Assembly (NCBI GenBank): GCA_001910725.1
Contig: MJGA01000044.1
Span: forward strand, 62,001 to 126,000
Length of the DNA: 64,000 nucleotides
Reading direction: 5' to 3'
DNA from: Phanerodontia chrysosporium
Lineage: Eukaryota; Basidiomycota; Agaricomycetes; Polyporales; Phanerochaetaceae
A program made the position numbers and the translations under genes. The notes under the pieces were generated by a model, which saw nothing but the letters and a program-made list of their open reading frames with translations, had not been told where the DNA came from and made no database searches. Position 1 is the stretch's first letter. Each line of letters starts with the position of its first letter. Positions 1 to 51,433 of this stretch are shown piece by piece.

Positions 1-616
1 CACACACCTGTCGCAGCTCCTTGCAGCGGTCGCAGGGACCAGGCGCTCCAGCGGTAGCGTGAGCCTGGTGCCCCATCTGTCTGCGCTTCTTCTGCTGTGG
101 CTCCTGTTCGACCTCTTCCTCCTCGGTCTGGTGCTCCTCGGATTGCTGCTGCCGCTGGTGCAGCTGGTCCCCCTCCTCGTCCTCCGCCTCCTCGTCCGCC
201 TCCTCCTCGTCCGCCGCCTCATCGTCCGCCGCCTCGTCCTCCGCCTCGTCCTCCGCCTCGTCCTCCGCCTCGTCCTCCACCTTCTCCTTGCCCTTGCCCT
301 TCTTTTCCTCCGCCTTCTTCTTGCCCTCCGGGTGCCGGGCCTTCTCCGCCATCTCCGCCTCTGCCCCATTCTTCTCCACGTCCATCTCCTCCACGTCCAT
401 CTCCCCGGCCTCACTCGCCGTTGCCGCCGTTGCCGCCGTCGCCGCCGCTTGTTCCTGTTGCTTCTTCGCCAACCCTGCGCGCAGCTCCTCGACCCTCCGC
501 CGCAAGGCTTCAACCTTCTTCTGTTGAAGGCGCAGTTCTAGTGGAGTGTCAGCGGCAGCATCTGTCAGGTTCTGCTAGCACTTACGTTCTTCTTCCCTTG
601 CACGCACGGTGGACAT
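1..616 (-). CDS. Zn2Cys6-type coiled-coil acidic protein, copy G (3' end off window)
   Basis: Two-exon gene running off the left edge. Exon 1 is 616-586 (ATG, 31 nt) and exon 2 starts at 537. The intron 585-538 is 48 nt with GTAAGT donor, GCTGAC branch-like site and TAG acceptor, and the frame continues across it. The protein starts with a charged helix rich in Gln, Lys and Glu, then Ala/Thr, then a long Glu/Asp/Ala tract made of EDEA units. Just before the edge comes CDRCKELRQVC, the first half (CX2CX6C) of a Zn2Cys6 cluster. Exon layout, acidic character and cluster match the antisense genes at 3605-4622, 23829-25073 and 41518-42640, so this is probably the antisense gene of another, more diverged A-type gypsy element. 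Zinc-dependent DNA binding is inferred from the motif only. Confidence 0.6.
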
Positions 617-3604: not shown

Positions 3605-4622
3605 CTACTCCTTTGTCCTCGCCCTCTTCCTCGCCGGACTCTTCCCCTCTTCTCCGGACTCTTCTGAATCCTCCGACAACTCCTCAGACCCCGACTCTTC
3701 ACATCCCTCCAAATCCTCCCCATCTTCTCCCTCTGTCTCCACCGCCTCCACCATTTCTTCGTCTTCCTCGTCTCCATCTTCTTCTCCGCTTTCTTCGCTC
3801 CTCTCTGCCGCCGCCGCCAACTCCGCCCGCATCGAGTTCACCCGGACGGTCCATTGCTGCACGTTCTCGGGCCAGTCCACCTGGTCGGTCTTCAGCCGCT
3901 CCAGCTCCTGCGCAACCGCCTGTAGCTGCTCCAGTGGAACTCCGACCTCCGCCTCCGGCGGCGCCCCCTGCGCCCGCAACTGGACTGACGCCGAATCAAA
4001 ATCCGGGTCAGTCAACCCCGCGTACAAAGCGTCCGCCAGACTACCCATCTTCACCGCGAGCTTGGAGAGCTCCTGTCGAGACCGATTTGCCTCCTCGGAG
4101 AACCTCTTCCCCTCCGCCCTCGCCGCCACAGGCAGGCGGTCCAAGGCTGCCACCCACGCAGCAGACTTGGACACGGCCTCCAGCTCCGAGCGTCGCTCGG
4201 AACCCACAACCTCTGTTTCTGCCTCCGTCTCCGCTGCCGTCTTCCGCTTCCTCTTCGCCCCCGACTGCCTCTCCGCCTCCTTCTCTTGCTTCCGCTGCTT
4301 CTCTGCCGCCCGCTTCCAGTTCTGCTCCGCCTCCTCCGCTTGACGCTTCGCCTCCTTCATCTCACGCAACGCCTTCTCTGCCCGGCGCTTCGCCTTCTCT
4401 GCCCGGCGCTTCGCCTTCTCTGCCCGGCGCTTCGCCTCCTCTGCCTGACGCTTCGCCTCCTCCGCCTTCCGCCGCATCTCCTTGAGCCACTCCTCCATCT
4501 CGTGCCTCTTGCGCACTGCCTCGGCTTTCTGAATTTCTGCAACCTCGTTAGCGACCGGACGCCCTAGATCAAACTCCGAAACCCGCACCTTGTTCAAGTT
4601 GCGTTTCTCCTTCGGAAGACAT
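3605..4622 (-). CDS. Antisense accessory protein, copy E (Zn cluster lost)
   Basis: Exon 1 is 4622-4589 (ATG, 34 nt) and exon 2 is 4536-3605; the intron is 4588-4537 (GTGCGG...TTGCAG). Spliced product 321 residues. The N-terminus is a long Lys/Glu/Ala coiled coil with heptads of the EEAKRRAEKAKRRAEKAK type, then a middle domain shared with the other copies (ADALYAGLTDPDFDSASVQLR; WPENVQQWTVRVNSMRAEL), then a very acidic tail ending ARKRARTKE. The Zn2Cys6 block between coiled coil and middle domain in copies A and F is missing here, replaced by unrelated sequence. The frame is otherwise open. Lies in antisense to the gypsy element it sits in. Confidence 0.65.
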
Positions 4623-23828: not shown

Positions 23829-25073
23829 CTACGTCCGCGCCTTCTTCCTCGCCGGACTTTTCTCCGCCTCCTCGTCTTCGGATTCCTCGGCGTCCTCTTC
23901 TTCCGACGTTTCCGACGTCTCCGAGCTCTTCTCCGAGCTCTCCTCATCTTCCGTCTCCTGTGCCTCCACCAAGGGGCTCCGTTCTTCGGCCTCCTCTCCG
24001 TCCGCGTCTTCTTCTCCGTCCGCGTCTTCTTCTCCGCCCGCGTCTTCTTCTCCGCCTTCCCCAGCTGCCTTGGCCTGCTCCTCCGCCGCCGCCAACTCCG
24101 CCCGCATCGACTTCACCCGGACGGCCCACTTCCGCGCGTTCTCGGGCCAGTTCGCCTGATCCGTCCTGATCAGGGCCAACTCCTGCTCCACCGCCTCGAG
24201 CTGCTCCCGCGGAACTTCGACCCCGGCTCGGGCGCCGACCCCAACACCTGGAGGCGGACGAGGGCAGGGTCAAAGTCCGGGTCCGCCAGCCCGGCATACA
24301 GGGCCTCCGCGAGCATGCCCATGCCGGCCGTGAACTTCGCGAACTCGAGGCGGGTCACCTTGCCCTCGAGGGTGATCTGCTCCCCCACGTCCCGCACCGT
24401 GGCCGTCAGCCGCCCCAGGGCCTCCACGATCGCGGCCGCCCCAGCCGAGATCTTCGCCTCCGCTCCGCATCCGCAACCTCCGGCCTTCGCCGGCGGCTCC
24501 TCCGCCCGCTGCTTGCCCTTCTCCGCTGCAGCCGTCCGCCGCGCCACCCGCTCACGGGGACCCCGTCCTGCGTGCACGGCCGCTTGGAGGTCGCGCACGG
24601 CTGGCAGACTTTCGCACGCCCGCCGACCCGCCACTCGCACACCTGCTTCATCCTGCGACAGAAGTCGCAGGGCGTCCGCTTGGCGAGCTCCGCTGGCCTC
24701 CGCACCTCCGGCCCTGGCTCCGACTCCTCCTCCGCCACCTCCGACCGCCTCCTCTTCACTGCCGACGCGGACCTCCCCGCCTCCTGCTCCTCGCGCTTCC
24801 TCCGCCTCTCCGCAGCCCGCTTCCGATTCTCCTCCTCCTCCGCCCGACGCTTCTCCTCCTCCTCCGCTTTCCGCTTTGCCTCCTCCGCCTTCCGCCGCGC
24901 CGCCTCGCGCTTCTGCTCGATCACGCGCCTCTTGCGCGCCGCCTCCTCGAGTTGCCGCTTGGCCTCCTCTTCGGCCTCGCGGATTTCTGCGGAATCCGGT
25001 TAGCACGGACCCCCAGAGAGCGAACCCCGAAGTACTGACCGCGTTCGAGTGCTTGCTCGTCGGAGGAGGACAT
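23829..25073 (-). pseudogene. Antisense Zn2Cys6 gene, copy F (two frameshifts)
   Basis: Exon 1 is 25073-25040 (ATG, 34 nt), the intron 25039-24987 (GTCAGT, GTGCTAACC branch, CGCAG), and exon 2 starts at 24986. Exon 2 opens with the Lys/Glu/Ala coiled coil and then the full cluster: CDFC, RRMKQV, C, ten residues, CQPC, ATSKRP, C, exactly CX2CX6CX10CX2CX6C. After VSG the frame shifts (about 24550) into the middle domain ADALYAGLADPDFD-like block, and shifts again (about 24210) into WPENARKWAVRVKSMRAEL and the acidic tail. Two indels make it a pseudogene; splice sites are intact. Confidence 0.7.
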
Positions 25074-32933: not shown

Positions 32934-32972
32934 GTACCCCCTCTTCAGATTCGAACTCCCGAGAGAAGACTT

Positions 32973-35637
32973 TTATTTTCCAGTGGATCCAAACCCGCCT
33001 GATCCACGATCGGTTGACTGTAGCGTTTCGACAACTTCTATGTCGGCATCGGCGATTTTCTCCAGGATCAATTGAGCCGCCCTATCTCCAGTCGTCACTG
33101 TGAAGTCACTGTCGCTTGTGTTAAGGAGTAGTATTTTGACGATACCCGTGTAGTCCCGGTCGATAACACCTGCGCCGATATGAATGCCTTTGAGTGCCAG
33201 TCCTGATCGTGGTGCAATTCGTCCATAGGTCCCAGTTGGAACTCGGATGTGAATGCCAGTGCTGATGAGTTTGCGGTCTCCTGCTGGAATTGTTGCATCC
33301 TCTGCTGCATACAGGTCCCAGCCTGCTGCCTCGGTAGTGCTCTTGGATGGTGTCTTTCCACCATCTAGAACGATTTGAAGGGTTTCCTCTTCATCGAGTT
33401 CTAAACCGTCTGTTTCCATAGGTGCTTCTTCGTTCCGAACGCGCCAAAATTCCGCGATCTTCTCTTTAGCACCTTCCAGATTACTTTCTGGTTCCCATTT
33501 GTCTTCTTCTGGCCCATAACCCTTCCATCGAACCATGTACCAGTTTCGTTTTCTGACACGCCCGGTAGTCTTATGGTTGAGAATTTTCTCGACCTCGTAC
33601 TCAAGCTCTCCGTCGTGAACTTCTGGCTCTGGTGGTGCGGCTCGTTGGCCGACGATGGAGGGTGTAGAATAGGGGATTAATTTACTAGCATGGAACACCG
33701 GGTGATATGCCCTGTATTGTGGAGGCAGTTTCACCTTGAAGGTTACTTTGGATAGTTGTTCGATGATTTCGAACGGTCCTAGGTACCTCGGTGTCAGCGT
33801 GCGTTGAGTGGTTTGGTAATCCTTTGAATTCAGCAGGACTTTGTCGCCGACTTTAAACGGCACTTCTTGCTTGTTCTGGTCATAGTACCACTTCATACGG
33901 TCCGCTGCTAGTTGTAGGGCTGCTTTGGCCTTGTCTTGGGCGTCTTGTCTAAGTCTGAATATCTCGTTCAAGTCCTTGCTTTTGGCTTGCTTGTCGAGAG
34001 TTGGTCCTGCCCGTGGGTGTCTACCATATTCTAGAAAGAACGGCGTGTCCTTTGTACTTTCGTGTGCTGCATTGTTGTAGGCGAATTCTGCAGTGGGCAG
34101 ATAATCGACCCAGTCTTCGTGATTGACATTATCAGCGAAGCAGCGTAGGTACTGTTCTAGAACTTGATTTACTCGTTCTGTTTGACCGTCTGTCTGAGGG
34201 TGGTATGCCGTTGACATCGCTAACTCGATACCGAGTAGCTTACACCATTCTTGAAAGAGTTCAGCCGCGAATTGAGTTCCTCTGTCTGAGATTATCTGCA
34301 AAGGTAATCCGTGGATAGGGTAAATTCTATCCATCAGGATCTTTGCGAGGTCTTTAGCAGAGAATTTGTTCGTTATCGCGAAGAAGCGTGCTCTCTTGGT
34401 GAGTCGGCATACGACGACTAGAATGGCATCTTTTCCTCTTGACGGCATCAACTGAGTAATCAAGTCGATGGTAATAACTTCCCAAGGTCCGTTAGGTACC
34501 TTGTTGGGCATGAGTTGTCCGTAGGTCTGCTGTGTGCGATTCTTCATTCGCTGACACGTGTCGCAACCTGTGACGTATTTCTTGACGAAGACAGACATTC
34601 CCGGCCACCAATAGTTTCGGGAGACAAGTTCATAGGTCTTCCATCTGCCTGGATGTCCGGCTGATGGGTGGTCGTGGTGCATTTGGACTACTCGTCGTCG
34701 TAAGTCCTCATTCTCATCCTTTGGTATGTAGATATGACCCCGGAAGAGTAGCAATCCATTCTCAAAGTTCCATTCCTCTAACGGTTTCTTGAACTCGCGT
34801 GGGCCTGATTTGAGTAACGATTGATAGTTCTTGGTGACTTCGTCGGATAACAGAGCCTTCTTGACCTCTTGGAGCAGTAAATCGTCGTTTACTGGAGCGT
34901 CATGGGAGGCGTCGATCGCGCAGACTTCGAGCAGATTGGCGAAAAATTCTGGTTTCAGAAGAATATGATCGCGATTATCGAGTTCTACCCCCTCTTCATG
35001 ATCTGGTCTCCTGGACAGAGGATCTTCAGCTTCCATTGTTTTACCCGGCTTGTGGTGTAGTGTGAAATGGAATCTTGTTAGGTATAATGCCCAACGAGCT
35101 TGACGGCGAGACAATTTCTGGGCCTGCTTGAAATAAGTCAGGTTCTGGTGGTCTGACCATATCTCGAATTTCTCCGGATGTCCCTCTAGATAGTGCCTAT
35201 ACTCTTCTAACCCGCGGATTATGGCCAACATCTCCTTGTCGTATATCTCATAGTTCCTTTCGTGAACATTGAGTGACTTGGAGTGGAAGGCTACCGGATG
35301 GTAAAGCTTATCGTTTGGGTCGAGTTGTGACAAAACTGAGCCGATCGCGAAGTCACTCGCGTCGGTAGAGAGTCTGAACGGATTAACGTCGTCTGGAATT
35401 CGTAGAATTGGTGCAGAAGTGAACGCCTTTTTCAGGTCGTCAAACGCCTTCTGCTGGTCAGGACCCCATTCCCATGGTTGATCCTTCTTGGTGAGTACCG
35501 TGAGTGGCTTCGTGATCTTCGCAAAGTCTTTAATAAACCTGTGATAGAAATTCGCGAATCCAAGGAATGCCTGAACGTGCTTGACCTTGGTCGGTACGGG
35601 CCACTCCGTTACGCCCGTGACTTTAGCAGGGTCCATT
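32973..35637 (-). pseudogene. pol: Pol of element B, C-terminal piece (RT end to dUTPase)
   Basis: Second half of a pol frame cut by element A in the middle of RT. Contains the RT thumb (FLGFANFYHRFIKDF), RNase H (LSTDASDFAIGSVLSQ), integrase (zinc motif ending CDTCQRMK; core TIDLITQLMP, ISDRGTQFAAELF, TDGQTERVNQVLEQYLR), a GPF-like segment (LTPRYLGPFEIIEQLSKVTF), a chromodomain (YEVEKILNHKTTGRVRKRNWYMVRWKGYG), and the dUTPase domain described separately. No internal stop. It is called a pseudogene only because the gene is physically interrupted; the two parts rejoin in phase at the duplicated CCATT. Confidence 0.93.
32976..33365 (-). other. dUTPase domain at the Pol C-terminus (element B)
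   Basis: The last ~125 residues of Pol contain all five motifs of trimeric dUTPases in order: AAGWDLYA (1); GRIAPRSGLALKG (2, with the PRSG uracil-site signature); GVIDRDYTGIVKILL (3, catalytic Asp); GDRAAQLIL (4); and RGSGGFGSTGK (5, the Gly-rich phosphate-binding arm). The enzyme would hydrolyse dUTP to dUMP and pyrophosphate, limiting uracil incorporation during reverse transcription. It is fused in frame after the chromodomain through an acidic linker, with no intron or stop. Confidence 0.93.
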
Positions 35638-36168
35638 TGTCATGGCGCTGAAATCCCGAGCCAACTCCGGTCATGGAGAACGCCGGAGTTCGAGGGAAGC
35701 TACGGAGTAGCATGGACATTCGGAGTTGCGACTCCGGTTGGTTGCTAAGGTCTTATCTTCACCACATGCCTTCATCATCTCGCAAACCTTTACCCCTTCG
35801 TTCCTGAGACAAATCCCAGATTGGAAGTATGATATGTTTTGTACATCTCCGACCATCTCCACGAACTCCGGACTCAGTAGTATATAAGCTCCCGCGCTAG
35901 CACTTGTATCCTCAGTTCGGATATCGACTTAGGTCCCCCTTGTACCTTCTCGACTCTGCTTAATCCTTTCTCGCAATCTCTGTGTGGGCCCGAACCCCGC
36001 CACTTCTCCGTATCTCCGACTCCGAAATCCAGGCAACGCAGACCGCCGAGGGCGCAGCCCTTTAAGGCTGAAGCCGACTGCCATCCGACCCCCGACCTCC
36101 GCCCTTCTCCGACCCTTTCTCCGCTCCGTCCTCCGTTCTCCGGCCCATCTCCGTCCCGCACCTTGACA
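35638..36168 (+). repeat. Element A 5' LTR
   Basis: TGTCATGG...CTTGACA. TATATAAGC at 35881; predicted start A35914, 33 nt downstream, defined by AGTTCGGATAT (35914-35924), which is complementary to the primer-binding site. Confidence 0.95.
35881..35914 (+). promoter_or_regulatory. TATA box and predicted start of A
   Basis: TATATAAGC to A35914, 33 nt. The same TATATAAGC...CAGTTCGGATAT arrangement is in the F LTR; the solo LTR at 2443 keeps only a degenerate TATA (GTATGTAAG). Confidence 0.7.
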
Positions 36169-36170
36169 GT

Positions 36171-36181
36171 ATATCCGAACT
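36171..36181 (+). other. Self-priming primer-binding site of A
   Basis: ATATCCGAACT, 2 nt after the LTR; the exact reverse complement of the predicted mRNA 5' end 35914-35924 (11 of 11). Confidence 0.75.
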
Positions 36182-36196
36182 CACACTCGGCACTGC

Positions 36197-37591
36197 ATGA
36201 GCGCCTTCCAGCAGGCGTACGGACACATCAACGTCCGGCCGCGACGATCCACGTCGCAACGATCCACGTCGCAACGACCCGTGTCGCGACGACACACGAC
36301 TCCGGACGAGGACCGGTTCGAAGAACTAGGTCCAGACGAGGAACCCCAGGCTGCAGAGCCGCAACCGGAAAACCGGGCCTCTGAGGAACCTCCGGTCCCG
36401 GAATTCCACATGCCTCGCGAATCCCCGAACAACCCGTTCCAGGATTCCGACCGGAGTAGAGAGGGCTCCCAGTCCCGTTCCGGCTCACGGCGTTCGGAGC
36501 CACGGAACGAGGAAGCTCCGCCATCGGACATAGTCCGGTTAGCGGAGGTACTGGAACGATTAACTCGTAAGACGTCCTCCTCTCCTCCGCCCCGCTCTGT
36601 GAAGGTCCGGAAGCCCGATCCGTTCGATGGCTCCGACCCACAGAGGCTCAACACCTTCCTGCTCCAGTGCCAACTGGCCTTCCGGACTGATACCCGGAGT
36701 TTCTCCCGGGGTCAGGACAAGGTCAGCTTCGCTCTCTCGTACCTCAAGGGTACTGCGTTGGACTGGTTCGAACCAGCCATCATGAGGGGCGAAGATCCGG
36801 AATGGATTGACGACTGGGATATCTTCGTGGAAGAACTCCAGTCAAACTTCGGAGTCTTTGACCCGGAGGGCGACGCGGAGTCCAAACTCCAGACGCTAAC
36901 CATGCGCGACGATAAGCCGTGCGCAAAATATCTTGCTGAATTCAACAGGTTAGCATCCCGAGTTCAGTGGAGCGAGCCGGCCTTGTGCTTCTTGCTCTAC
37001 AAGGGCCTTCCAGCCCGGCTCAAGGACAAGATCTCCGAGTCCCCGTCCGGCAAGCCTAAAACGCTGGCCGGAATGCGGAGGATGATCCAGCTCTACGACC
37101 GGCGATATTGGGAGCGCCAGGAAGAGATCCGCCGTGAACGGGGGTCTCAGCCAAAAGCCAGCTCGTCGCAGAACTCCGGCTCACGGAGTAACAACTCCGG
37201 AGGCAGTTCTAACAATGCGTCGAGCAGCGGCAACGGCAACCAGGCTGCTAAGTCCAGCGGCAACAACAACCAGGCAAAGGGTTCGAACTCCGGGGGCAGG
37301 AATGATACTCCGAACCCGAGGGCGAACTCCGCGCCGCGGCCCGGAAACAACAGCGGCGGCAACAACTCCACCGCTGACAGGGCAAAGGCAATGGGTTTGG
37401 ACAAGAACGGTAAACTAACGCCAGAGGAGCGTAAACGCCGTTTCGAAAACAACTTGTGCATGTTCTGCGCAAAGCCCGGCCACAAGGCCCGGGACTGTAC
37501 CAACCCCGCCTCTACGGCCTCCCAGGCTAAGGCCCGCTCGGCTACGACCACGAGCTCCGCTACTCCGCAGAGCTCGGAGTCAAAAGCCTGA
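36197..37591 (+). CDS. gag: Gag, element A
   Basis: 464 residues, ATG 36197 only 15 nt after the priming site. Order: Arg/Ser-rich N-terminus with repeated STSQR units; acidic stretch; capsid-type domain (PDPFDGSDPQRLNTFLLQCQ, LSYLKGTALDWFEPAI, FVEELQSNFGVFDPEGDAE, YLAEFNRLASRVQW); a long Asn/Gly/Ser-rich low-complexity segment; and a zinc knuckle CMFCAKPGHKARDC. Ends TGA 37591, with pol in the -1 frame. Confidence 0.95.
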   Translation: MSAFQQAYGHINVRPRRSTSQRSTSQRPVSRRHTTPDEDRFEELGPDEEPQAAEPQPENRASEEPPVPEFHMPRESPNNPFQDSDRSREGSQSRSGSRRSEPRNEEAPPSDIVRLAEVLERLTRKTSSSPPPRSVKVRKPDPFDGSDPQRLNTFLLQCQLAFRTDTRSFSRGQDKVSFALSYLKGTALDWFEPAIMRGEDPEWIDDWDIFVEELQSNFGVFDPEGDAESKLQTLTMRDDKPCAKYLAEFNRLASRVQWSEPALCFLLYKGLPARLKDKISESPSGKPKTLAGMRRMIQLYDRRYWERQEEIRRERGSQPKASSSQNSGSRSNNSGGSSNNASSSGNGNQAAKSSGNNNQAKGSNSGGRNDTPNPRANSAPRPGNNSGGNNSTADRAKAMGLDKNGKLTPEERKRRFENNLCMFCAKPGHKARDCTNPASTASQAKARSATTTSSATPQSSESKA

Positions 37592-40500
37592 GCAACTCTC
37601 GTGGCTCCGCACGGGCCGAGAGTTGCGTTGAATCTTCCCGTGCATCCGAGGAGCTCCGTCTCAACGCGTCCGCTCTTTCTCCGTCGCATTCCTTCTATGT
37701 TCCGCTAACCGCACCCCCCGATCTTTCTCTTCTTGCGCTGCTAGACAGTGGCTCCTCACATTGTTTCATTGATTTCGATTTTGCCAAACGGCACCATCTC
37801 CGGCTCAAGTCCGTTCCTCCGCTTCCGCTCCGTCTTTTCGATGGATCTCTTGCAGGGACCATCTCCTTCTCCGTTGATCTTCCGGTCACTTTTCCGACCG
37901 GGAACACCCTGGATTTGTCTTTCTACGTTACTAAACTCGACTCTCCGTCGACTGCAGTCTTAGGTCTCAACTGGCTATCCGCCTTCAATCCGTCGATTGA
38001 CTGGGCAGCCCGTACCATCACCTTTCCGCCTGCAGTCTCTCCCGTACCCCCGTCTCCGGCTGATAAGGCCACATCTCCGGAGAAAACCCCCACTTCCGAC
38101 GAGTCTTCCGATCCCACTCCTCTTGAACTCCGCTCCGCTCCTCTCGTTTCCCTCATCGGAGCAGCCGCATTCGCGCGAGCCTTGCAGTTGCCCGGCTCAG
38201 AAGTATTCCACTTCTGTCTGCGCGCCGTCTCCAACTCCGCTACTCCCGCTCCGACACCCCCGCTCGACCTATCCAATGTTCCCCCAGAGTATCACGACTT
38301 CGCCGACGTCTTCAGCGAGGAACATGCCTACACTCTACCCCCTCACCGACCTTACGACCTCAAAATCGAGTTGGAAGATGAAAAACCCCTAACTCCGGGG
38401 CGTCTCTACTCCCTATCTCCGGCTGAACTCCAGGCTCTCCGCGAGTTCATCGATAAGAATCTCTCCGCAGGATTCATCCGCCAGTCCGCCTCTCCGCACG
38501 GAGCTCCGATCCTCTTCGTCAAGAAGAAGGACGGGAGTTTACGCCTCTGTGTGGATTTCCGCGCACTGAATCGCATCACCAAGAAAGACCACTACCCCCT
38601 CCCGCTCATCTCCGATCTCCTGAATGCTCCGGGGAAAGCCCGTATCTACACCAAGATAGATCTCCGCCATGCGTACCATCTGGTCCGCATCGCGGAGGGC
38701 GACGAGTGGAAAACCACGTTCCGCACGCGCTACGGCTCTTTCGAGTGGTTGGTTATTCCTGAGGGTCTTACTAATGCTCCTGCTGCTTTCCAGAGATTCA
38801 TGAACGACGTTTTCCGCGACCTGCTCGATGTATGTGTTATCGTCTACCTCGACGATATCCTCATCTACTCCGATTCTCCGGAGGAGCACCGGAAACACGT
38901 CCGCGAAGTTCTCCGCAGACTCCGCGAGCATGGCCTCTACGCCAAGGCTCCAAAGTGTCAGTTCCACACTGACTCGGTGGAGTACCTCGGATACATCTTG
39001 TCCCCCTCCGGACTTTCGATGTCCGAGGACAAGGTCAAGATTATTCTTGACTGGCCTACTCCGCGGAAGGTCAAGGACATACAGTCCTTCCTAGGGTTTG
39101 CAAATTTCTATCGTCGCTTCATTCCTTTCTATTCCGATATCGTTGTTCCGCTAACCCGTCTCACCCGGAAGAATACTCCGTGGAAGTGGACTCCGCAGTG
39201 TCAGGAGGCGTTCGATACCTTGAAAAAGGCTTTCACGTCCGCTCCGACACTGGCGCAGTGGAAGCCCGGAGCTCCGTTGATTGTGGAGACCGATGCGTCC
39301 GACTATGCACTAGCGGCCATCCTATCCATGGTCACGGACGACGGCGTTCATCCGCTTGCGTTCCACTCCCGGACATTCTCCGCTCCGGAGTTGAACTACG
39401 ACGTTCACGACAAGGAGTTGCTAGCCATCTTCGAGGCATTCCGCATCTGGCGGCACTACCTCGAAGGCTCCTCTACCCCCATAGACGTCATCACCGACCA
39501 CAAGAACCTGGAGTATTTCTCCACGACGAAACTCCTGACCCGGAGACAAGCCCGGTGGTCGGAGTTTCTGAACTCCTTCAACATGGTCATCCGCTTCCGT
39601 CCCGGCCGTCTGGGCACCAAGCCCGACGCGCTCACTCGACGATGGGACGTCTACCTTAAAGAGGGAGGTAACGGCTACGCCAACGTCAATCCGCACAACT
39701 ATAAGCCGATCTTCACCTCCGAGCATCTCGCTGCATCCCTCCGAGCGACCATCCTCGCAGCTCCGGTTCTCCGGGCTGTGGTCACTATGGACGTGGAAAC
39801 ACTGCACGACGATATTCGTAAGGCTTTGGCTACGGATTCCCTTGCTTCTTCTATCCTTTCCCAATCTCCGCTTCCTCCGCGCTGGTCCGCTGATAATACA
39901 GGTTTACTTCTTCTCGACAATCGCATCTACGTCCCCGACATTCCCGAACTCCGGCTCCGAGTTCTCCGTTACAAGCACGACCACCCCCTCGCGGGTCACT
40001 ACGGCTTTAACAAGACTCTCGAGCTCCTCCGACGCGAGTATACGTGGCCCGGTGTCCGTGGGTTTGTCAAGGACTACTGCCAGTCTTGCACGACTTGCAG
40101 GAGATCCAAGGCGCCCCGGCACAAGCCATACGGAACTCTGCAACAACTTCCGATCCCGGAGAAGCCATGGAACTCCATCTCCATGGACTTCATCGAGCAC
40201 CTTCCGAAGTCCTTCGGATTCTCCGCTATCCTTGTGGTGGTGGATCGTCTCACAAAGCAGGCAATCTTCATCCCCACCCACGACGAGATTGATGCTCCGG
40301 GACTAGCTAAGTTGTTCATCCTCCACGTTTTCTCCAAGCACGGAGTTCCCTCGCACGTCACCTCCGACCGAGGTTCCGAATTTGTCTCTCAGTTTTTCCG
40401 CTCTCTGGCACTGGCTCTGGACATTGAGCTCCACTACACCTCCGGGTACCACCCCGAGGCAGATGGGCAGACAGAGCGTACTAACCAGACTCTCGAGCAG

Positions 40501-41271
40501 TATCTCCGGATGTACTGCAACTACCAGCAGGACAACTGGTCGGAGTTACTTCCGCTCGCGGAGTTTGTGTACAACAATGCCCCGAGCGCAACAACGGGCA
40601 TTTCTCCGTTCTTCGCTAACAAGGGTTATCACCCGAATCTCACAGTGCACCCCGAGCGTGACATCGCGTCCGCCCGCGCTCGCGACTTCGCTGTCGATCT
40701 CCACGAGCTCCAGTCGGAGCTCCGGACACAGATCGCGGAAGCTCAGAAGCGCTACCAAGGACCTGCCGATGCCCGGAGATCACCTCCACCTGACCTCCAG
40801 GTCGGAGACATGGTCTTCGTCAAGGCTAAGCACTTCCGGACTACCCGTCCATCTCCGAAGCTTGCGGAGAAAATGCTTGGCCCTTACAAGGTCATAGCAA
40901 AGGTTGGCCCGCAGTCCTACACACTGCAGCTACCCCGCGAATTCCGCACCGTACACCCCGTGTACCACATATCCATGTTAGAACCTCACCTTTCTAGTTC
41001 TATTCCAGGTCGGACTACATCTCCGCCACCTCCGGTCGAAATCGACGGAGACCTCGAATACGAGATCTCCGAGATCGTAGACTCCAAGATCGACAAACGT
41101 CGGAGATGCCCCCTCCTCTACAAGGTCCGCTGGTTAGGATATGAAAACACCGACGAAGAGTTCGAATGGATTCCGGCAAGCGAGCTAGAGCATGCTCAGG
41201 AACACATTGCGGACTTCCATCTCCGGTATCCCGAAAAACCCGGTCCACTCTCGGACTCCGTACCCCGATGA
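37531..41271 (+). CDS. pol: Pol, element A (intact)
   Basis: The -1 frame relative to gag is open from 37531. Protease LLALLDSGSSHCFIDFDF (Asp at 37744); RT with VIVYLDDILIYSDSPEEH; RNase H (VETDASDYALAAILSM); integrase with a histidine pair, CQSCTTCRRSK, and core MDFIEHLPKS, TSDRGSEFVSQF, ADGQTERTNQTLEQYLR; GPYKVIAKVGPQSY linker; chromodomain (YEISEIVDSKIDKRRRCPLL / YKVRWLGYENTDEEFEWIPA). No canonical slippery heptamer is found at the overlap; the gag end reads TCA AAA GCC TGA, which would allow only a one-codon slip, so how pol is reached is unclear. Confidence 0.95.
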   Translation, partial: GPLGYDHELRYSAELGVKSLSNSRGSARAESCVESSRASEELRLNASALSPSHSFYVPLTAPPDLSLLALLDSGSSHCFIDFDFAKRHHLRLKSVPPLPLRLFDGSLAGTISFSVDLPVTFPTGNTLDLSFYVTKLDSPSTAVLGLNWLSAFNPSIDWAARTITFPPAVSPVPPSPADKATSPEKTPTSDESSDPTPLELRSAPLVSLIGAAAFARALQLPGSEVFHFCLRAVSNSATPAPTPPLDLSNVPPEYHDFADVFSEEHAYTLPPHRPYDLKIELEDEKPLTPGRLYSLSPAELQALREFIDKNLSAGFIRQSASPHGAPILFVKKKDGSLRLCVDFRALNRITKKDHYPLPLISDLLNAPGKARIYTKIDLRHAYHLVRIAEGDEWKTTFRTRYGSFEWLVIPEGLTNAPAAFQRFMNDVFRDLLDVCVIVYLDDILIYSDSPEEHRKHVREVLRRLREHGLYAKAPKCQFHTDSVEYLGYILSPSGLSMSEDKVKIILDWPTPRKVKDIQSFLGFANFYRRFIPFYSDIVVPLTRLTRKNTPWKWTPQCQEAFDTLKKAFTSAPTLAQWKPGAPLIVETDASDYALAAILSMVTDDGVHPLAFHSRTFSAPELNYDVHDKELLAIFEAFRIWRHYLEGSSTPIDVITDHKNLEYFSTTKLLTRRQARWSEFLNSFNMVIRFRPGRLGTKPDALTRRWDVYLKEGGNGYANVNPHNYKPIFTSEHLAASLRATILAAPVLRAVVTMDVETLHDDIRKALATDSLASSILSQSPLPPRWSADNTGLLLLDNRIYVPDIPELRLRVLRYKHDHPLAGHYGFNKTLELLRREYTWPGVRGFVKDYCQSCTTCRRSKAPRHKPYGTLQQLPIPEKPWNSISMDFIEHLPKSFGFSAILVVVDRLTKQAIFIPTHDEIDAPGLAKLFILHVFSKHGVPSHVTSDRGSEFVSQFFRSLALALDIELHYTSGYHPEADGQTERTNQTLEQYLRMYCNYQQDNWSELLPLAEFVYNNAPSATTGISPFFANKGYHPNLTVHPERDIASARARDFAVDLHELQSELRTQIAEAQKRYQGPADARRSPPPDLQVGDMVFVKAKHFRTTRPSPKLAEKMLGPYKVIAKVGPQSYTLQLPREFRTVHPVYHISMLEPHLSSSIPGRTTSPPPPVEIDGDLEYEISEIVDSKIDKRRRCPLLYKVRWLGYENTDEEFEWIPASELEHAQEHIADFHLRYPEKPGPLSDSVPR

Positions 41272-41517
41272 TACCCTTCCGTTTCTCTCTCCATTTTTCT
41301 CTCTCTCTCGCCCTGAACCAACATCAAAAAAAACAAACAGACAAAGTCTCTCTCCGCGTTTTCTCCGATTTCTCCAATTTCTCCGTCTCCGAACTCCGTC
41401 TCTAATTCCGGTTTCTCGTATCCGTTCACTCTCACTCTCACTCACACAAGAAATCCCCGAAAACATCACATAGTATTAAAAAGAAAAAAAACATAACATA
41501 AACAAAACAAAAACCCC
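41272..41517. other. Convergent gap between pol and the antisense gene
   Basis: A pyrimidine-rich then A-rich stretch with AATAAA-like and TAGTATTAAAAAG sequences; similar sequence follows pol in element F. Likely holds the 3' ends of both transcripts. Confidence 0.4.
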
Positions 41518-42640
41518 CTACTCCTTCCTCGCCTTCTTCCGCGCCGGACTTTTCTCCGCCTCCTCCTCCTCCGACGACTCCGAGCTCTCCTCCGAGCTCT
41601 CCTCCTCACCCTCCGTCTCCTGCGCCTCCGCCAAAGGGCCCCCTTCTTCTTCTTCTTCGTCTCCTTCTCCGTCTTCTTCTCCGCTCTGCTCCGCCTCCGC
41701 CCGCTCCAACTCCGCCTTCATCGACCCCACGCGGACGGCCCACTTCTTGACCTCACGGGGCCACCGCGCCTGATCCGCCTTGATCAGGTCCAGCTCCCTC
41801 CGCACCGCCTCCACCTGCTCCGCCGGCACCTCCACCTCCGGCCCCGGCGCCGGACCCAGACCCTGCATCCGGACGAGGGCGTCGTCGAAGTCCGGGTCGG
41901 CGAGACCGGCGTACAGCGTGTCCGCCAACACCCCCATGGTGTAGGCGAACTTGGCGAACTCGCGCCGGGTCTCGTCGCCCTGGCGCTTGACCTCCGCCGT
42001 GAGGTCGTCCACCGCCTCCGTCAGGAGGCCCAGGGCCTCCGCGATCGCCCCCGCGGCCGTCGCCACCTCCGACTCCGCTCCGGCCTCGGAGTCCGCGACC
42101 TCCTCCGCCGTCACCAGGGCCTTGCCCTTCCCCTTCTCCGCGGCCTTCTTCCGCGGCGCGACTCCGCTCACGGAGACGCCACCCCTCGTGCACGGCCGCT
42201 TGGCGACCGCACACGGCTGGCAGGCCTTCGCCCGCCCCCCAACCCGCCACTCGCACTCCAGGCCCAACTTGCGACAAGAGTCGCAAGGGGCCTGCTTCGC
42301 GGCCTCCGCCTCCGCGTGCCTCCGGGCCTCCGTCTCCGCGGACCCCTCCGCCACCTCCGGCCGCTTCCTCTTCGCGGCCGACGCGGACCCGCTCGCCTCC
42401 TTCTCCTCCCGCTGCTTCCGCAGCTCCGCCGCCCGCTTCCGCTTCTCCGCCTCCGCTGCCTTCCGCTTCGCCTCCTCGCGCCGCTGCTCGATCTCGCGCC
42501 GTTTTCGCGCCGCCTCCTCGAGGGCCCTCTTGGCCTCCTCCTCGGCCTCCCGGATTTCTGCGAACTCCGTTAGCGTCAGACTCCGGAGAAAGAACTCCGG
42601 GGTACTCACCCTGCTCAAGGCGTTCGTCTTCGGAAGACAT
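41518..42640 (-). CDS. Antisense Zn2Cys6 coiled-coil protein, copy A (intact)
   Basis: Exon 1 is 42640-42610 (ATG, 31 nt), exon 2 is 42557-41518. The intron 42609-42558 (52 nt; GTGAGT, GACGCTAAC branch, CGCAG) restores the frame; 356 residues. Order: short acidic start (MSSEDERLEQ); Lys/Glu/Ala coiled coil (about 12-75); cluster CDSC, RKLGLE, C, ten residues, CQPC, AVAKRP, C, matching the fungal Zn2Cys6 spacing CX2CX6CX5-12CX2CX6C, in a basic setting; a conserved middle domain (FAKFAYTMGVLADTLYAGLADPDFDD); a helix (LIKADQARWPREVKKWAVRV); and an acidic Ser/Glu tail ending SPARKKARKE, a likely nuclear signal. Probably a nuclear DNA- or RNA-binding regulator, possibly acting on the LTR; this is inference. 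Confidence 0.8.
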
Positions 42641-42834
42641 GGTGGTTCTGAGGGACCCCAGCCAGAATCCGCGAGCCTAAAATACCCGAAATCCGTACCC
42701 CGGGCACCCCTTCCGCAACCCCGGATACCCGATCAATTTTCATCCGCTGGGGAACGCCGCATTCCGTTGGGGCACGAAAAAATACGAAAATCGTACGATG
42801 TCGCGAATTCGCTTGGCCTCGAAGGTCTCGGCCT
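42641..42834 (-). promoter_or_regulatory. Antisense gene promoter region, copy A
   Basis: Minus-strand GTATTTTAGG about 40 nt before the ATG, GGGGTGCCCGGGGTACGG ahead of it, and TCGTACGA further up; the blocks are shared with copies E and F. Confidence 0.45.
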
Positions 42835-42847
42835 AAGAGGGAGGTAC
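42835..42847 (+). other. Polypurine tract of A
   Basis: AAGAGGGAGGTAC immediately before the 3' LTR. Confidence 0.7.
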
Positions 42848-43378
42848 TGTCATGGCGCTGAAATCCCGAGCCAACTCCGGTCATGGAGAACGCCGGAGTT
42901 CGAGGGAAGCTACGGAGTAGCACGGACATTCGGAGTTGCGACTCCGGTTGGTTGCTAAGGTCTTATCTTCACCACATGCCTTCATCATCTCGCAAACCTT
43001 TACCCCTTCGTTCCTGAGACAAATCCCAGATTGGAAGTATGATATGTTTTGTACATCTCCGACCATCTCCACGAACTCCGGACTCAGTAGTATATAAGCT
43101 CCCGCGCTAGCACTTGTATCCTCAGTTCGGATATCGACTTAGGTCCCCCTTGTACCTTCTCGACTCTGCTTAATCCTTTCTCGCAATCTCTGTGTGGGCC
43201 CGAACCCCGCCACTTCTCCGTATCTCCGACTCCGAAATCCAGGCAACGCAGACCGCCGAGGGCGCAGCCCTTTAAGGCTGAAGCCGACTGCCATCCGACC
43301 CCCGACCTCCGCCCTTCTCCGACCCTTTCTCCGCTCCGTCCTCCGTTCTCCGGCCCATCTCCGTCCCGCACCTTGACA
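42848..43378 (+). repeat. Element A 3' LTR
   Basis: 531 bp, essentially identical to 35638-36168; followed by CCATT. Confidence 0.95.
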
Positions 43379-44870
43379 CCATTTCTACATGATTCTTGGA
43401 TATAATCATGCCGAGATAGGCGAGTTTGTCCTTCTCGAATAGACACTTTTCTGCCTTTGCGAAGAGGTCGTTGTCTTCCAGTCGCTGCAACACTTCGTGT
43501 ACGATCTTTCGATGTTCCTCGCGGTCGTTGCCGAAGATGAGGATATCGTCGAGGTAGACCATAACCTTTCCTTGACGGATAAGGTCTTCGAAGATGTTGT
43601 TCATCATATTCTGGAATGTTGCCGGTGCGTTTGCGAATCCAAAGTACATAACTTTGGCCTGGAATAAACCGTCTTTGGTTACGAAAGCCGTTTTCCACTC
43701 GTCACCTTCCTTGATGCGGACATTGTTATATCCCCATCGAAGGTCGATTTTTGTGAATATCGACGCCTGAGATAGTGCGTCGATTAAATCGGCGATGCGA
43801 GGGATAGGATAACGGTTCTTCTTTGTAATTCCATTCAAGGGGCGGTAATCCATGCAAGGTCGCAAACTGCCATCGGCTTTCTTTACGAAAAAGAATGATG
43901 CAGCGATGGGTGACTTCGACTCTTCAATGTAGCCTTTTCGGCGTTCCTCACGAATCCACTCGTCGAAAGACGAGCGTTGTCTCTGGTCTAGTGGGTACAC
44001 CTTTCCGATTGGGGGCAATTTTGCTCCTTCCTCAAATTCGATGGCATGATCCCATGGTTTGTGGGTGGGCATGCGTTCAGACTTGGTTTTACTGAATACG
44101 CTTTCGAACTTGTGAACCCAACTCGGTACCTGTGATTTCCATTGCGAGGTGTCAACTGTATCGTCGTCATCCTTTTCCAGGATGTCAGCAACAGCCTCGG
44201 CTTGCGTTCGTTCCTCTGGGTTACTGAAATCAACCCAGTTGATGTGGTGGGGAATATCCTCTTCTCCAATATCGTCCAGTGAGGATTCCCAAGGTTGCTC
44301 TGGTTCGAGCTCTGCCAGCTCCTCGTCATTGCCGATTTCGATGTCGAGGGCTTGGACTTTCTGTGCCATGCTGGAGACTTTGCATGATTCAGGACATCTG
44401 GTGAACTTCCAATTGCCTTTTGCCCAGTCGATTTCTGGGTTATGCCGGTGTAGGAACTTGTACCCTATATACATGTCTTTGTCGTGCAAATCCGTCACGA
44501 GCAAGTACTGGGTATGTTTGTGTGTTCCAATTTCCAAGTAGGCTCGCAGGGCGTGAGTGATTCGTCCTGCTTTATTGATCGTTCCATCCGCATTTTTTAC
44601 TTCATACGGATTTGCCAACTTAATAGTTACCAGATTGTTCTTTTCGACGAAGCTGTGATTGATGAAACTCGTCGTGGCACCTGAATCAACCAGGGCTTCT
44701 GCCTGCGCTTTTTTACCATACACCCACAGAGTAATAGGAAGTTTGAACGATAAAGATTTATTACGCGAGACGTTCAATACATCGATAACAATTACTCTAT
44801 CTACATCCAGTGTAGACTCGGCCGTGGGTACATGATCAGCGTTATTAACCTGTAGGACGCAGGGATCCAC
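43379..44870 (-). pseudogene. pol: Pol of element B, N-terminal piece (protease to mid RT)
   Basis: Starts overlapping the gag stop (TAGTG) and runs to the A insertion. Protease: AEALVDSGATTSFINHSF. RT: GYIEESKSPIAASFFFVKK, SIFTKIDLRWGYNNVRIKEG, FVTKDGLFQAKVMYFGFANA and VYLDDILIFGNDREEH. Breaks off after LAYLGMIISKNHVEM and resumes in phase at 35637. An acidic insert (DNEELAELEPEQP-like) separates protease and RT. No ATG near the start, so probably made as a Gag-Pol fusion. Confidence 0.92.
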
Positions 44871-46434
44871 TACAGGTCGTTGAGAAAATCCACTTTCCGG
44901 TCAGACGATTTCGCGTATTTAGCAGCTCGGGCCCTCATACGTGCACGCCTAGCTTCCCGCTCATCAACGGGTTCCTGGGGGGGAGTCTGTTTCAACTCCT
45001 TCTCGTCTTCCTCCGTCCATTCGTGGATATGGGCCGCATTGATGACGACTTCGTCGTCGGCCTCGAGTCCCGCGATCTCCTTCTCTAATTCGGCCATTCT
45101 GGCCTTTGCTTGATTGAAGGAGTTTTTCTTGGCGGCGATTGCCGCTGCGTTCTTGCCTTTTCCTTGATTATTACTCCCCCGCTCGAGGAGGAGGCCTTGC
45201 CGTTGTTGTTGTTACCGGAGGACTGTTGCGGCTTCTGGTCTTTGAGCGAGAAGCAGTCCGAAGTGACGTGCGTTTTAGCATGCGCGAACTTCTTCAGCTC
45301 AGTGCAAATGGCGCAGGGAGTTGAAACCTTCTTGGCTTCTTGTGAATTCGCCTGTTGTTTCCCCTTGCCTTTGCCCTTGCCCGTTTGAGCCACGCTGATG
45401 TCCATAGCGTTCGGGTCCGGTGTAGAACCCGAGCCGTGCGAGTTTCCCTTGCTGAAGATGTGCGTCGCTGCGCGGTCGGGGTAGAGTTCCTTGTATGCCT
45501 CAACGAGATACGTCATGAATTCCGACGCGGTTGTAGGCCAACTCGAGCGACCGCGACCCAGCACGAAGATGCCCAGCTTCTCCTCGACGTTGTCGTACAG
45601 CTTGTTAATCATATGCGCATCCGTGAATGGCTTGCTGCTGTTGTCGAGGAGTACCTTGAAGCGAACCGAGTAGTCGATGATGTCCTTCTGAAGGGCCGAC
45701 TTGTCGTTGAGTAGCTTCTCGAGGTCCTTCGTTGCCGTGCGCGTAACATCCTTTTGACCGTATACCGTCTGGAGACTAGCCCAGAAGCTGTCGACCGAGC
45801 CCATGTCCTCGCCCTTGGCGTTCTTGTCCAACAGTGGTTGCATCAGCTTCAGGGCTGGTTCACGCAACAGGGACAACGCATTGACTATGCGCTGTTTGTC
45901 CGTCGTGATGCCCTGGGTGCTGTTCCAAAGTTCGACCAGATTTTTCCATTCCTCAAACTTCGTCGTGTTCTTCTCGCCTGAGAAGAGCGGCGGTTGGGCG
46001 GACTTGGGGCGAGCAGGTGCGCCACCTCCTGAACCGATACCGGCTGGGAGGGCGTTCAACTGTTTGATCGCATTGTCTGCGATCCCCTTGACGCTTTCCA
46101 GCGTGGCTTCCTGGACATAGGTGATTTTCTGGGTTTCGACCAGCTCTTCGCGGACTTCGTCCACCTTCTCCAGAATCGTCGTCATAGCCCCGTTAAAAAT
46201 ATTGAGGAACCCATCGAATAGGTGCCTCACGTGGGCCTCATTCTGACGGGAGGCTTCGACAACCCCCGCGTAGATCGATTCTTGAATGAAAATTCTTTGG
46301 TTCTGCGATATCTCCTCTGGTGCTGCGACCGAGGAGATTGCCTGAACCGTGGTCTCGTGAGAGAGCTGGATATTGTCCGAGGACAAGTTGATTTCGGTCC
46401 AGTTGATTTGAGCGATTTGATCAGCGTCAGCCAT
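44870..46434 (-). pseudogene. gag: Gag, element B (1-nt deletion near 45174)
   Basis: ATG 46434. Order: N-terminal helical part (IFIQESIYAGVVEASRQNEA), capsid-type region (QPPLFSGEKNTTKFEEWKNLV, LLREPALKLMQPLLDKNA, VDSFWASLQTVYG), DPNAMDISVAQTGKGKGKGK, and a Cys/His motif CAICTELKKFAHAKTHVTSDC instead of a standard knuckle. At a G5 run near 45174 the frame jumps to a 31-codon tail and stops at 45085; one extra G would continue into NNQGKGKNAAAIAAKK and the 75-codon acidic coiled coil (45097-44870) that ends at the pol overlap. Hence a homopolymer deletion in this copy, or an unusual frameshift. Confidence 0.8.
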
Positions 46435-46567
46435 TGTTTCTTAGTCAAAAGGTATGTTAGTACAAATTCTTTCCACTTTTACAGTTGGAAAGTAAGGAAA
46501 ACTCTTATGTATCACACAGAAGTTCAGTGTCAGGTGGAGTTTTTATTACATCGGGTTACAGGTGGAT

Positions 46568-47353
46568 TTAGTATTCGAATGAGATATTGAGAGCGACGAG
46601 CTCCCTTGCGATCTCTACATATCGAGTACTAAAATTTTCGAAGGATACATATTTTATTTTCTTCAGATCCCTCGTAATCCACCTGTAATGCTTTCCCTTC
46701 AACTTCTTTCTCCCCTTGTTCTCGTCGAAGTGGTCGTATAAGTCTTCGAAGTCGACGAGCAACTTCGAGACCTCGTCGCCTAGCTCCTTGTCGACCTTGT
46801 CGATGTCGACGAGGTGGTCGCTGAGCGGTACCAAACGAAGGTTTACCGCGTTGAACAAGTTCATCATCTCTTTTGTTCGATCGATGATGTGCGACTTCTG
46901 CATACGACCTGCTTCTTTCGGGACCTTGCCTTGCATGTCGCCGTCGTTCCCGTATGTCTCCTCGACCTCTTCTTGAGACAGGTGCTGAGGGGGGCCCAGG
47001 CGACTCAGGAGTGAGGGAGCCGGATTCGAAATCCGGTCCTCGAGACGCTTGCGCGCCTTCATCTCCATGATGAGCCTGGAGGCCTGTTCGAGCGCCCAGA
47101 GGCGTTCCTCGAACTCCTCGTTGATGCGATCCTGCTCGGCCTTCGGGACGGGGCGGGTGACGGTGCGACGGTTACGCTCGCGCTGGAGGAGATACTTCTC
47201 GCGCTGTTTGGGGCGCTCGATCTCGGCCAGCTTCTCCTTGACCTCCTCGTAGACCTTTTCTTGGGTCTCCTTGCGAAGCGAGATGCGCTCGGCGAGGGAG
47301 GGATAGGGGGCGGCGGCGTTGCGGGCAATGATGGTCTTGTTGTAGAACTTCAT
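46568..47353 (-). CDS. Pre-gag ORF (ORF0-like), element B
   Basis: 261 residues, ATG 47353, upstream of gag on the same strand and in a different frame (131-nt gap). Mostly helical and charged: LAERISLRKETQEKVYEEVK, KQREKYLLQRERNRRTVTRP, then NLFNAVNLRLVPLSDHLVDI and an Asp-rich helix, ending HYRWITRDLKKIKYVSFENF and YVEIARELVALNISFEY. The C-terminal pattern W-x3-L-x2-I-x2-(V/I)SF-x2-hydrophobic/aromatic-x(n)-I-x2-EL-x(n)-FE parallels ORF0 of C and D, and both have an SDH a little earlier. No known domain recognised. A pre-gag protein is not part of the usual gypsy plan. Confidence 0.65.
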   Translation of the reverse strand: MKFYNKTIIARNAAAPYPSLAERISLRKETQEKVYEEVKEKLAEIERPKQREKYLLQRERNRRTVTRPVPKAEQDRINEEFEERLWALEQASRLIMEMKARKRLEDRISNPAPSLLSRLGPPQHLSQEEVEETYGNDGDMQGKVPKEAGRMQKSHIIDRTKEMMNLFNAVNLRLVPLSDHLVDIDKVDKELGDEVSKLLVDFEDLYDHFDENKGRKKLKGKHYRWITRDLKKIKYVSFENFSTRYVEIARELVALNISFEY

Positions 47354-48192
47354 TTCTGTGTGATAACATAATCAACCAGCGTCCTTTTACAGGTACGACT
47401 TATGGGAAGGAAAAGTGCTCAGAAAATGAGGGTTACCAGCCCTCTCTTGCTGCGGTTCGAATCTTGATGCGCGCGCATTCGTGGGTAGAGTCGTTTACGG
47501 CATGCCATTATCTCTCTGCACATGCGCGATGGGGGAGTTTCAGATCTCAGTCGGGTTTCCACACCCGCTGCAAATGGTTTGTCGTGCCTTACAGCTACGA
47601 TCTCCACGGACTTCCTGGATGCTAGCGTCTTACCGCTTGTCATCCAGTACTGGGGATGCGGCCACCTTGCGGTGGACTCAACACCCCACGCGTCGCGTGG
47701 CCACTTACGCCTGTGGATCGGCAAGAAGATTCCCATGCTGTATTGCACAGCCCGCCCACATGGTCGCACTCCTGGCGCCACGTGTCCAACGGTGGGTCTC
47801 AACATGTCAAGCCCCTTGTCAGGTGGCCCAACGTATCCCCCAGATCCCAAGTCGTTTAGGTCTCCGGACAGGCCGAGCACAGCATCGCCTATTACAGGTC
47901 GATGTGCGCTTCGAACCCGCCTACACAAACATCACTCGCGATAATTCGTCGAGTAATGCCCATGCGACCCCATGGTCAACGACGTACAGCCCCCTTTTAC
48001 AGGTGGACCTCAGTCGCTGGCCCCACGAATGAAGAACTACCCCTATTACAGGTGGTAGCCGCGCATCGAAGAAGCGAACCTGCGAACGCAAGATTATAAG
48101 TGGTAAAAGGTGCCGACGTCGCCAGCAACGACGTCGAGCACACTGCGCACGACGATCAAGCCCTTAAGGCCGACGTCGACGCGAAGGGGTAT
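47354..48192 (-). other. Untranslated leader of element B
   Basis: About 840 nt between priming site and the pre-gag ATG. Apart from the repeated motif noted separately, no coding-like frame is supported. Confidence 0.5.
47384..48053 (-). repeat. ACCTGTAAWAGG motif repeated four times in the B leader
   Basis: Minus-strand ACCTGTAA(A/T)AGG at 47384-47395, 47888-47899, 47993-48004 and 48042-48053; a shorter ACCTGTAA lies at about 46557-46564. All lie in the leader between the 5' LTR and gag. Could be splice-donor-like sites, a packaging signal or protein sites. Confidence 0.5.
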
Positions 48193-48203
48193 AGCATCAT
48201 CTA
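48193..48203 (-). other. Self-priming primer-binding site of B
   Basis: Minus-strand TAGATGATGCT, 2 nt inside the 5' LTR; complementary (11 of 11) to AGCATCATCTA at the predicted RNA start 48306-48296. Confidence 0.75.
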
Positions 48204-48205
48204 AA

Positions 48206-48737
48206 TGTCAAAGTAAACCCCGCTACTTACCTTAGTAGCTTAGTTGGGGGAACTTGACTGCGAGTGGGTGCGAGTGAAGTAGTTGGTAGACGAGGTAGAT
48301 GATGCTGGGGACTTAAGCCCAGCAGAGCCCGGTATATATACATGAAGGGGAGGACCCCTGGTACTACCCGAGACCCCTGATACTGCCCATCACATGCACG
48401 ATGGCGTGATGATGGTGCGATACTTGCCAAGACACTCCGGGCTCGGTGAAGTCTAAAGCCGAGTACCGGATGTGTCCGGAACCTTCTACGCTATTCTAGA
48501 ATACACTACCCGGACCCTGGGTCCGGCTACCTACTATACCCTTGTACCGGAGCGTCTACATCATAGATAAGATAAAGATAAGATCCTCACATGACTCTGA
48601 GTCCATTTCCAGCACGTGACCAACACGTGACCGCGTTCTGATGCGTGCCTGTCCTAACCCTAGTCCATAACCCTAACCCCTGGCGCCTACTGGGCGCTTA
48701 CAAGAATAAAACCGTAGGGAATTAGAAAACTGTGACA
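48206..48737 (-). repeat. Element B 5' LTR
   Basis: 532 bp. Minus-strand TATATATACC near 48341-48332 lies about 32 nt before the predicted start at 48306. Followed by GATGC. Confidence 0.95.
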
Positions 48738-51350: not shown

Positions 51351-51433
51351 GGTATGGATAGGGTCCAGGTAAGGCTCCAAGAGTTCGCGGAAGGTATAAG
51401 GGGTTTGGATAGTGTTAAATATACATGACCTCC

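Follow-up and report, generated by a model that had tools for sequence, protein, structure and literature searches.

Why would a retrotransposon carry, on the strand opposite to gag and pol, an intron-containing gene of its own, and what could the product do for the element? The question is raised by element A (Table 1), a retrotransposon of the Ty3/Gypsy type with long terminal repeats (LTRs), located in a stretch of 64,000 nucleotides of Phanerodontia chrysosporium, hereafter the window (contig C85, positions 62001-126000; the genome searched comprised 39.0 Mb in 145 contigs). From the letters of the window alone, an earlier note had proposed a two-exon gene for a zinc-cluster protein opposite the gap between pol and the 3' LTR. 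Here, we report that this antisense gene (42640-41518, minus strand, 356 amino acids) is real beyond chance, that a Gypsy family has kept it under constraint across copies and sublineages and, as a new observation, that the element carrying it is saturated with the word CGGAG. With a confidence just short of even, we read it as a genuine accessory gene belonging to this Gypsy lineage, whose product may recognise CGGAG in its own element and act in cis on the copies.

An antisense gene with splice signals, kept under constraint

The exons and the intron were found where the earlier note had placed them, and towards the 3' end of element A the antisense gene is separated by 246 nt from the pol stop (41271) and by 207 nt from the 3' LTR. 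A DNA search of the genome with the gene returned 15 matches, namely 11 near-full gene copies and four pieces in relics of the window, and the gene was present in 11/11 near-full element copies retaining the pol 3' end. Furthermore, a search with the last 1209 nt of pol identified 13 places at ≥94% identity, 11 of which were the gene-bearing copies (the one on C19 matching from position 194), with the gene adjoining each; the other two were a place on C2 (positions 1-899 only) and the relic of the window whose antisense gene starts at 25073 (positions 954-1209, with a broken gene adjoining).

Reading frames were open in 10 of the 11 aligned gene copies (L018 has one stop), and the splice signals GTRAGT...CAG were kept in all 11, as was the branch point CTAAC, 16 nt upstream of the acceptor, even though 22 of 53 intron columns vary. 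All ten distinct exon indels, the longest of 45 nt, were multiples of three, compared with 0/5 upstream, 0/1 in the intron and 4/19 downstream (21 of these 25 were not). Open frames, exon indels in multiples of three, and the splice sites and branch point kept in genomic copies place the gene beyond chance.

The ratio of nonsynonymous to synonymous substitution rates (dN/dS) was 0.13-0.49 in 51 of the 53 pairs for which it was defined (55 pairs among 11 copies, which are not independent), and the two higher values (0.63 and 0.79) rest on two synonymous changes or fewer; a ratio near 1, which the earlier note had named as evidence against its proposal, was not what the copies displayed. The predicted frame had the lowest dN/dS of the six frames in 7/7 pairs tested (0.27-0.44) and, in the same pairs, the pol 3' end gave 0.03-0.09; the antisense protein is therefore constrained, evolving faster than pol. 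Coding on the sense strand of this stretch was also considered and rejected, since the stop-free sense frame of element A had a dN/dS of 1.3-2.9 in 7/7 pairs.

Recent transposition took place together with the antisense gene. In the nine copies for which LTR pairs were compared (9 of 11; no pair was found for L018, and L019 was left out), mismatches numbered 0, 0, 0, 0, 1, 1, 1, 2, and 4, and the 5-bp target duplications were perfect in eight and preserved at 4/5 positions in the remaining one. The intron has persisted through multiple insertions, as expected because it is antisense to the genomic RNA of the element. Moreover, the TATA-like core of the antisense promoter is conserved, a related core precedes the array paralogs described below, and the 60 nt before the antisense ATG are little variable (nucleotide diversity, pi, 0.013).

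Saturation of the element with CGGAG

CGGAG was first noticed when the LTRs were searched for CGG words. The LTR of element A holds 17 CGGAG/CTCCG against 2.2 expected, and three relic or solo LTRs hold 12, 8, and 8 against 0.9-1.9 expected, while no CGGAG excess was seen in the LTRs of the Gypsy elements B and C of the window. The excess is not restricted to LTRs, since 162 CGGAG were counted in 7210 bp of element A (dinucleotide expectation 36.7, z 22), a density about 7-fold that of the window outside the lineage (153 in 50.6 kb). Among 106 1-kb bins of contig C85, all 10 bins with at least 13 CGGAG belonged to element A or to the 25073 relic; two arbitrary 2.5-kb pieces gave densities of 2.8 and 0 per kb. 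Clusters of three CGGAG at short range numbered 422 across the genome (218 in a reversed control), and on the 966-kb contig C13 all 22 such clusters listed lay within its single family copy. The longest CGGAG-free stretch of element A (280 nt, window 42595-42875) contains the antisense promoter.

When protein and codon usage were held fixed by synonymous shuffling, CGGAG was the top 5-mer both in pol (80 vs. 29.2, z 11.6) and in gag (21 vs. 8.3, z 5.0), whereas the best words of the control pols of B and C reached z 4.2 and 4.8 and were not CGGAG. Codon-pair bias was ruled out as the source, since the enrichment in pol is seen in each of the three frames and on either strand. CGGAG also ranked first in element A, pol, and LTR under a second-order model. 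In the A lineage, three stretches of relic DNA gave z 5.1-9.6, compared with 0.6 and 0.4 in the two copies of C, -0.9 and -2.5 in B, and -2.1 in a 9-kb locus of a Gypsy family at 42% identity. A relic on contig C91 gave 1.1-1.3 in three pieces, where the motif test is uninformative because the observed/expected CpG ratio is 0.27-0.44, as after methylation-linked CpG loss and unlike element A. No fixed spacing of CGGAG half-sites stood out by eye, and the promoter word GGGGT was in no clear excess in the LTRs.

Identity of the zinc cluster

Zn2Cys6 clusters follow the spacing CX2CX6CX5-12CX2CX6-8C, within which the cysteines of element A (CX2CX6CX10CX2CX6C) fall. The motif is exact, as the earlier note had described, and lies in exon 2 along with a coiled coil, a middle domain, and an acidic tail. 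The Pfam check that the note had suggested came out below threshold, with 12.1 bits for the whole protein and 15.1 for the domain alone against a curated cut-off of 21 bits for PF00172 (Zn_clus). In a Pfam scan of the whole protein (E up to 1), Zn_clus was the sole entry, with no bZIP and no other transcription-factor domain; scattered weak NCBIfam matches were taken as coiled-coil noise. On the other hand, 24 of 25 Foldseek matches of the domain model were Zn2Cys6 domains (eight different proteins, best E 0.097), as were 8/8 VIA rows listed for the domain, and the sole match in a PDB sequence search (E up to 10) was PPR1. A Zn2Cys6 fold is hence predicted for the antisense protein, with the same six-cysteine spacing and predicted fold as GAL4, PPR1, Leu3, Put3, and Hap1; unlike GAL4/PPR1-type factors, it remains below the Pfam cut-off and its long coil precedes the cluster rather than following it. 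Zn2Cys6 proteins typically regulate transcription, and those that are well studied typically recognise CGG triplets in pairs (passages of PMC5559640).

Proposed function and alternative explanations

The gene was probably captured, together with its promoter and intron, from a zinc-cluster gene family, and the antisense orientation would let the intron survive passage through the element RNA. Transcribed from its own promoter, it would most likely encode a DNA-binding protein of the Zn2Cys6 type, which may enter the nucleus and recognise CGG-containing words (CGGAG) across the LTRs and coding DNA of its own element. There, it would most likely keep the chromatin of the element open or the LTRs active, by a sequence-specific self-recognition like that of VANC proteins. 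The best reading of the product is an element-specific chromatin or transcription regulator, or an anti-silencing factor, by analogy with Zn2Cys6 factors, VANC21, and the TET/JBP genes of fungal DNA transposons, which are thought to counter silencing (PMC12730594). A self-recognition system evolved independently in fungal LTR elements, in which capture of the gene was accompanied by synonymous rewriting to about 180 binding words and the protein coats and protects its own element only, seems to us rather doubtful.

Several observations weigh against self-recognition. CGGAG positions were no better conserved than other sites in pol (p 0.40) and were more variable in the LTR (p 0.03); under the second-order model, CGGAG came ninth in gag and third among the words of the 25073 relic. 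It was also mildly enriched in a repeated block of the genome, ranking third in the gene array of that block under the same model, and first (39 vs. 22.1) in C85:36000-45999, where no family gene was among the matches listed. In addition, the seven domains of alignment A2 were chosen by cysteine pattern, so that their shared cysteines are there by construction. A persistent CGGAG density with shifting positions is compatible with turnover of sites or with compositional drift. We weighed the possibility that CGGAG is a mutational or compositional quirk of the lineage and that the protein acts otherwise, for example in nuclear import of the pre-integration complex or in integration targeting. 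This turnover, the milder enrichment of the repeated block, including the part without listed family members, and the raised counts of the neighbouring words GCGGA and ACTCC all speak for such a quirk; however, CGGAG ends sharply at the LTRs within the same chromosomal context, three other Gypsy families tested in the genome have no excess, and CGGAG is the top 5-mer in pol under two null models and in LTR and whole element under one, and we regard this explanation as unlikely.

A plain regulator acting at its own LTR only, as an activator or repressor with feedback of the Tax/Tat or HBZ kind, would account for the excess in the LTR of element A and in the relic or solo LTRs and would suit the usual role of Zn2Cys6 proteins. 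It leaves the CGGAG of gag and pol to another cause, and the saturation of both beyond codon choice speaks against it; we hold it improbable. That the gene is a passenger, a host gene captured once and replicated passively with no use to the element, is disfavoured and highly improbable: family members do exist outside Gypsy, but the gene is constrained across copies, occurs in every near-full copy that keeps the pol 3' end, and is retained in relics at 75% (25073, 3' stretch) and 78% (C91, pol) DNA identity. Least probable of all is a role for the antisense RNA rather than the protein, through double-stranded RNA or interference with the sense transcript. The conserved promoter region would agree with it, and antisense RNAs are known for other elements (passages of PMC7264820), yet selection acts on the reading frame and the splice sites are kept.

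If self-recognition through CGGAG holds, a private code for recognising DNA is within the reach of LTR elements as well, which would evolve it by capturing a gene and recoding their own genes at synonymous sites. The role of retrotransposon antisense accessory genes would also become directly testable, since one protein, one predicted DNA word, and one family of near-identical recent copies are at hand. Moreover, the antisense placement would be explained by the survival of intron and promoter through retrotransposition, and the likely source of the captured gene would be a repeated gene array of the fungus.

Comparison with described systems

HBZ of human T-cell leukaemia virus type 1 (HTLV-1) is an antisense gene at the 3' LTR, and its product is a bZIP protein. 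The likeness to HBZ drawn by the earlier note is one of layout and does not extend to the domain, as the Pfam scan (E up to 1) found no bZIP in the element A protein. HBZ localises to the nucleus (passages of PMC11963269), as the element A protein may do.

The earlier note knew of no described equivalent; antisense accessory genes at the same position, however, are already on record in Grande, Retand, and the fungal Boty. In the passages available, maize Grande gene23, RIRE2, Retand TRP28, and PvRetro13 are antisense, lie between pol and the 3' LTR, and occur in most copies. As here, a nuclear or DNA-binding role has been proposed for this group (PMC7264820, PMC11963269), and gene23, which has a promoter of its own, is nuclear (PMC7264820); these are plant elements, however, and their proteins belong to other families (TRP28, SMC-like). 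The word zinc is absent from the main texts of PMC7264820 and PMC11963269, whose passages do not mention motif saturation. Boty of Botrytis cinerea and Sclerotinia is a fungal Gypsy element with an extra antisense gene, brtn (Zhao et al., 2011, via PMC7264820 and PMC8365987), compared with the element A gene by description only; the citing passages mention no zinc cluster. A literature search on antisense or zinc-cluster retrotransposon genes revealed no Zn2Cys6 antisense gene in the titles or beginnings of abstracts that were listed.

A functional likeness is seen to VANC proteins of Arabidopsis VANDAL transposons, where a transposon-encoded protein is matched with a short motif that is dense in its own element but seldom occurs outside it; the motif bound by VANC21 is YAGTATTAY, and its density matters (PMC5735166, PMC10398659). 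CGGAG is similarly dense in its own element and rarer elsewhere, with milder enrichment in the repeated block. VANC differs in belonging to a plant DNA transposon and in having mainly noncoding, often tandem targets, whereas the motifs of element A are also in gag and pol. The likeness is one of working, without a claim of homology; under it, the element A protein would bind its motif and the target copies would lose silent marks.

Element A, its relics, and gene-family relatives

Table 1. Coordinates (window) of element A, its antisense gene, and related features.
Feature	Position	Strand	Description
Element A	35638-43378		chromodomain Ty3/Gypsy LTR retrotransposon
5' LTR	35638..36168	+	531 bp, TG...CA, target duplication CCATT, 1 mismatch vs. 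3' LTR
gag	36167..37591	+	stop-to-stop frame; Retrotrans_gag, Ty3_capsid; zinc knuckle below cut-off
pol	37531..41271	+	stop-to-stop frame; protease, reverse transcriptase, RNase H, integrase, chromodomain
3' LTR	42848..43378	+	17 CGGAG/CTCCG sites
Antisense gene, exon 1	42610..42640	-	31 nt
Antisense gene, intron	42558..42609	-	52 nt, phase 1, GTGAGT...GCAG, branch point CTAAC 16 nt before acceptor
Antisense gene, exon 2	41518..42557	-	coiled coil, Zn2Cys6-like cluster, helical middle domain, acidic tail, basic C-terminus
Zinc cluster codons	42190..42285	-	CX2CX6CX10CX2CX6C, exact
Antisense promoter region	42641..42847	-	GGGGTGCCCGGGGTAC (42710-42695), TATTTTAG (42684-42677); no CGGAG
CGGAG/CTCCG-saturated zone	35638..43378	.	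179 sites, sharp ends at LTRs
4622 relic, antisense gene	3605..4622	-	321-aa open frame, no zinc cluster, no gag-pol adjoining
25073 relic, antisense gene	24406..25073	-	zinc cluster present; frame breaks soon after, first stop ends 24406
Array paralog, first part	1..616	-	gene runs beyond window; repeated gene-array block, no Gypsy relic

Element A is a recent insertion of a chromodomain Gypsy retrotransposon, with gag, the order protease, reverse transcriptase, RNase H, integrase and chromodomain, TG...CA LTRs, and a 5-bp duplication. A search gave 4176 pol relatives; the fungi named in the best 120 were Agaricus bisporus, Pisolithus tinctorius, Leucocoprinus, and Ustilago, and the same 120 also included amphibian and other records.

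The genes starting at 4622, 25073, and 616 are related to that of element A, although the one at 4622-3605 lacks the zinc cluster that the earlier note's grouping would imply. First exons of 34, 34, and 31 nt and introns of 52, 53, and 48 nt, respectively, as placed, agree with the note. Element A and the 4622 gene alone have the shared upstream box exactly as TATTTTAG; it reads TATTTTAA at 25073 and TATTTAAT at 616. As for their location in Gypsy relics, it was borne out at 25073, where a pol end and an LTR adjoin; in contrast, 616-1 belongs to a tandem gene array. The 25073 relic (23343-25809) shares 75% DNA identity with element A (41016-43378) and keeps the order pol end (23343-23598, 94% identity), gene, and LTR (25286-25809). 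LTR pieces lie near the 4622 relic at 3330-3506 and 4833-4879. Outside the window, this order recurs in the C91 relic (L053, C91:1167000-1176900), which comprises an LTR, the promoter, the gene, and a pol of about 78% identity and is interrupted by other DNA.

The next pol matches listed were 25 places of the family at 42% identity (37 of 717 candidates scored), and no antisense-gene match among those listed was within 15 kb of them. Since older relics keep the layout and no gene is near the places of the 42% family, a single Gypsy lineage appears, as far as the matches listed go, to carry the gene and to have kept it long.

Promoter and intron are common to the element A gene and the array paralogs. 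A homologue search with residues 90-310 gave no match at E ≤ 0.01 among 7989 candidates scored, in a database that includes fungal proteins (the Agaricus, Pisolithus, and Leucocoprinus pol) and in which transposon antisense genes may lack annotation. A profile search (7996 scored) found one JGI fragment of 116 aa which, judged by eye, closely matches the end of array paralog N5889.

The repeated block comprises C85:36000-65151 and 125000-142400 (L052, L042, L044, L046, L050), including window 1-3150. At least 19 kb of it are common to C63 and C85, and pieces occur on nine contigs, often near contig ends; the block is possibly subtelomeric. It contains the tandem gene array, paired open reading frames without Pfam matches, and SNF2/helicase-like pieces (PF00271 above cut-off at window 62299-63387; PF00176 just below in L052).

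An Rfam scan of the window gave nothing reaching the gathering threshold. Element B (window 32402-48738), with 100% identical LTRs, is split by element A. Element C is present as two inverted copies (4881-12584 and 13344-21084), about 95% alike and forming a large palindrome, the first of which appears inserted into an LTR of the 4622 relic. Finally, the window holds a repeat array of 32-bp period and about 0.4 kb (50975-51390) and two 99% identical copies (28317-29342 and 59648-60673) of a 1-kb sequence that contains an inverted repeat.
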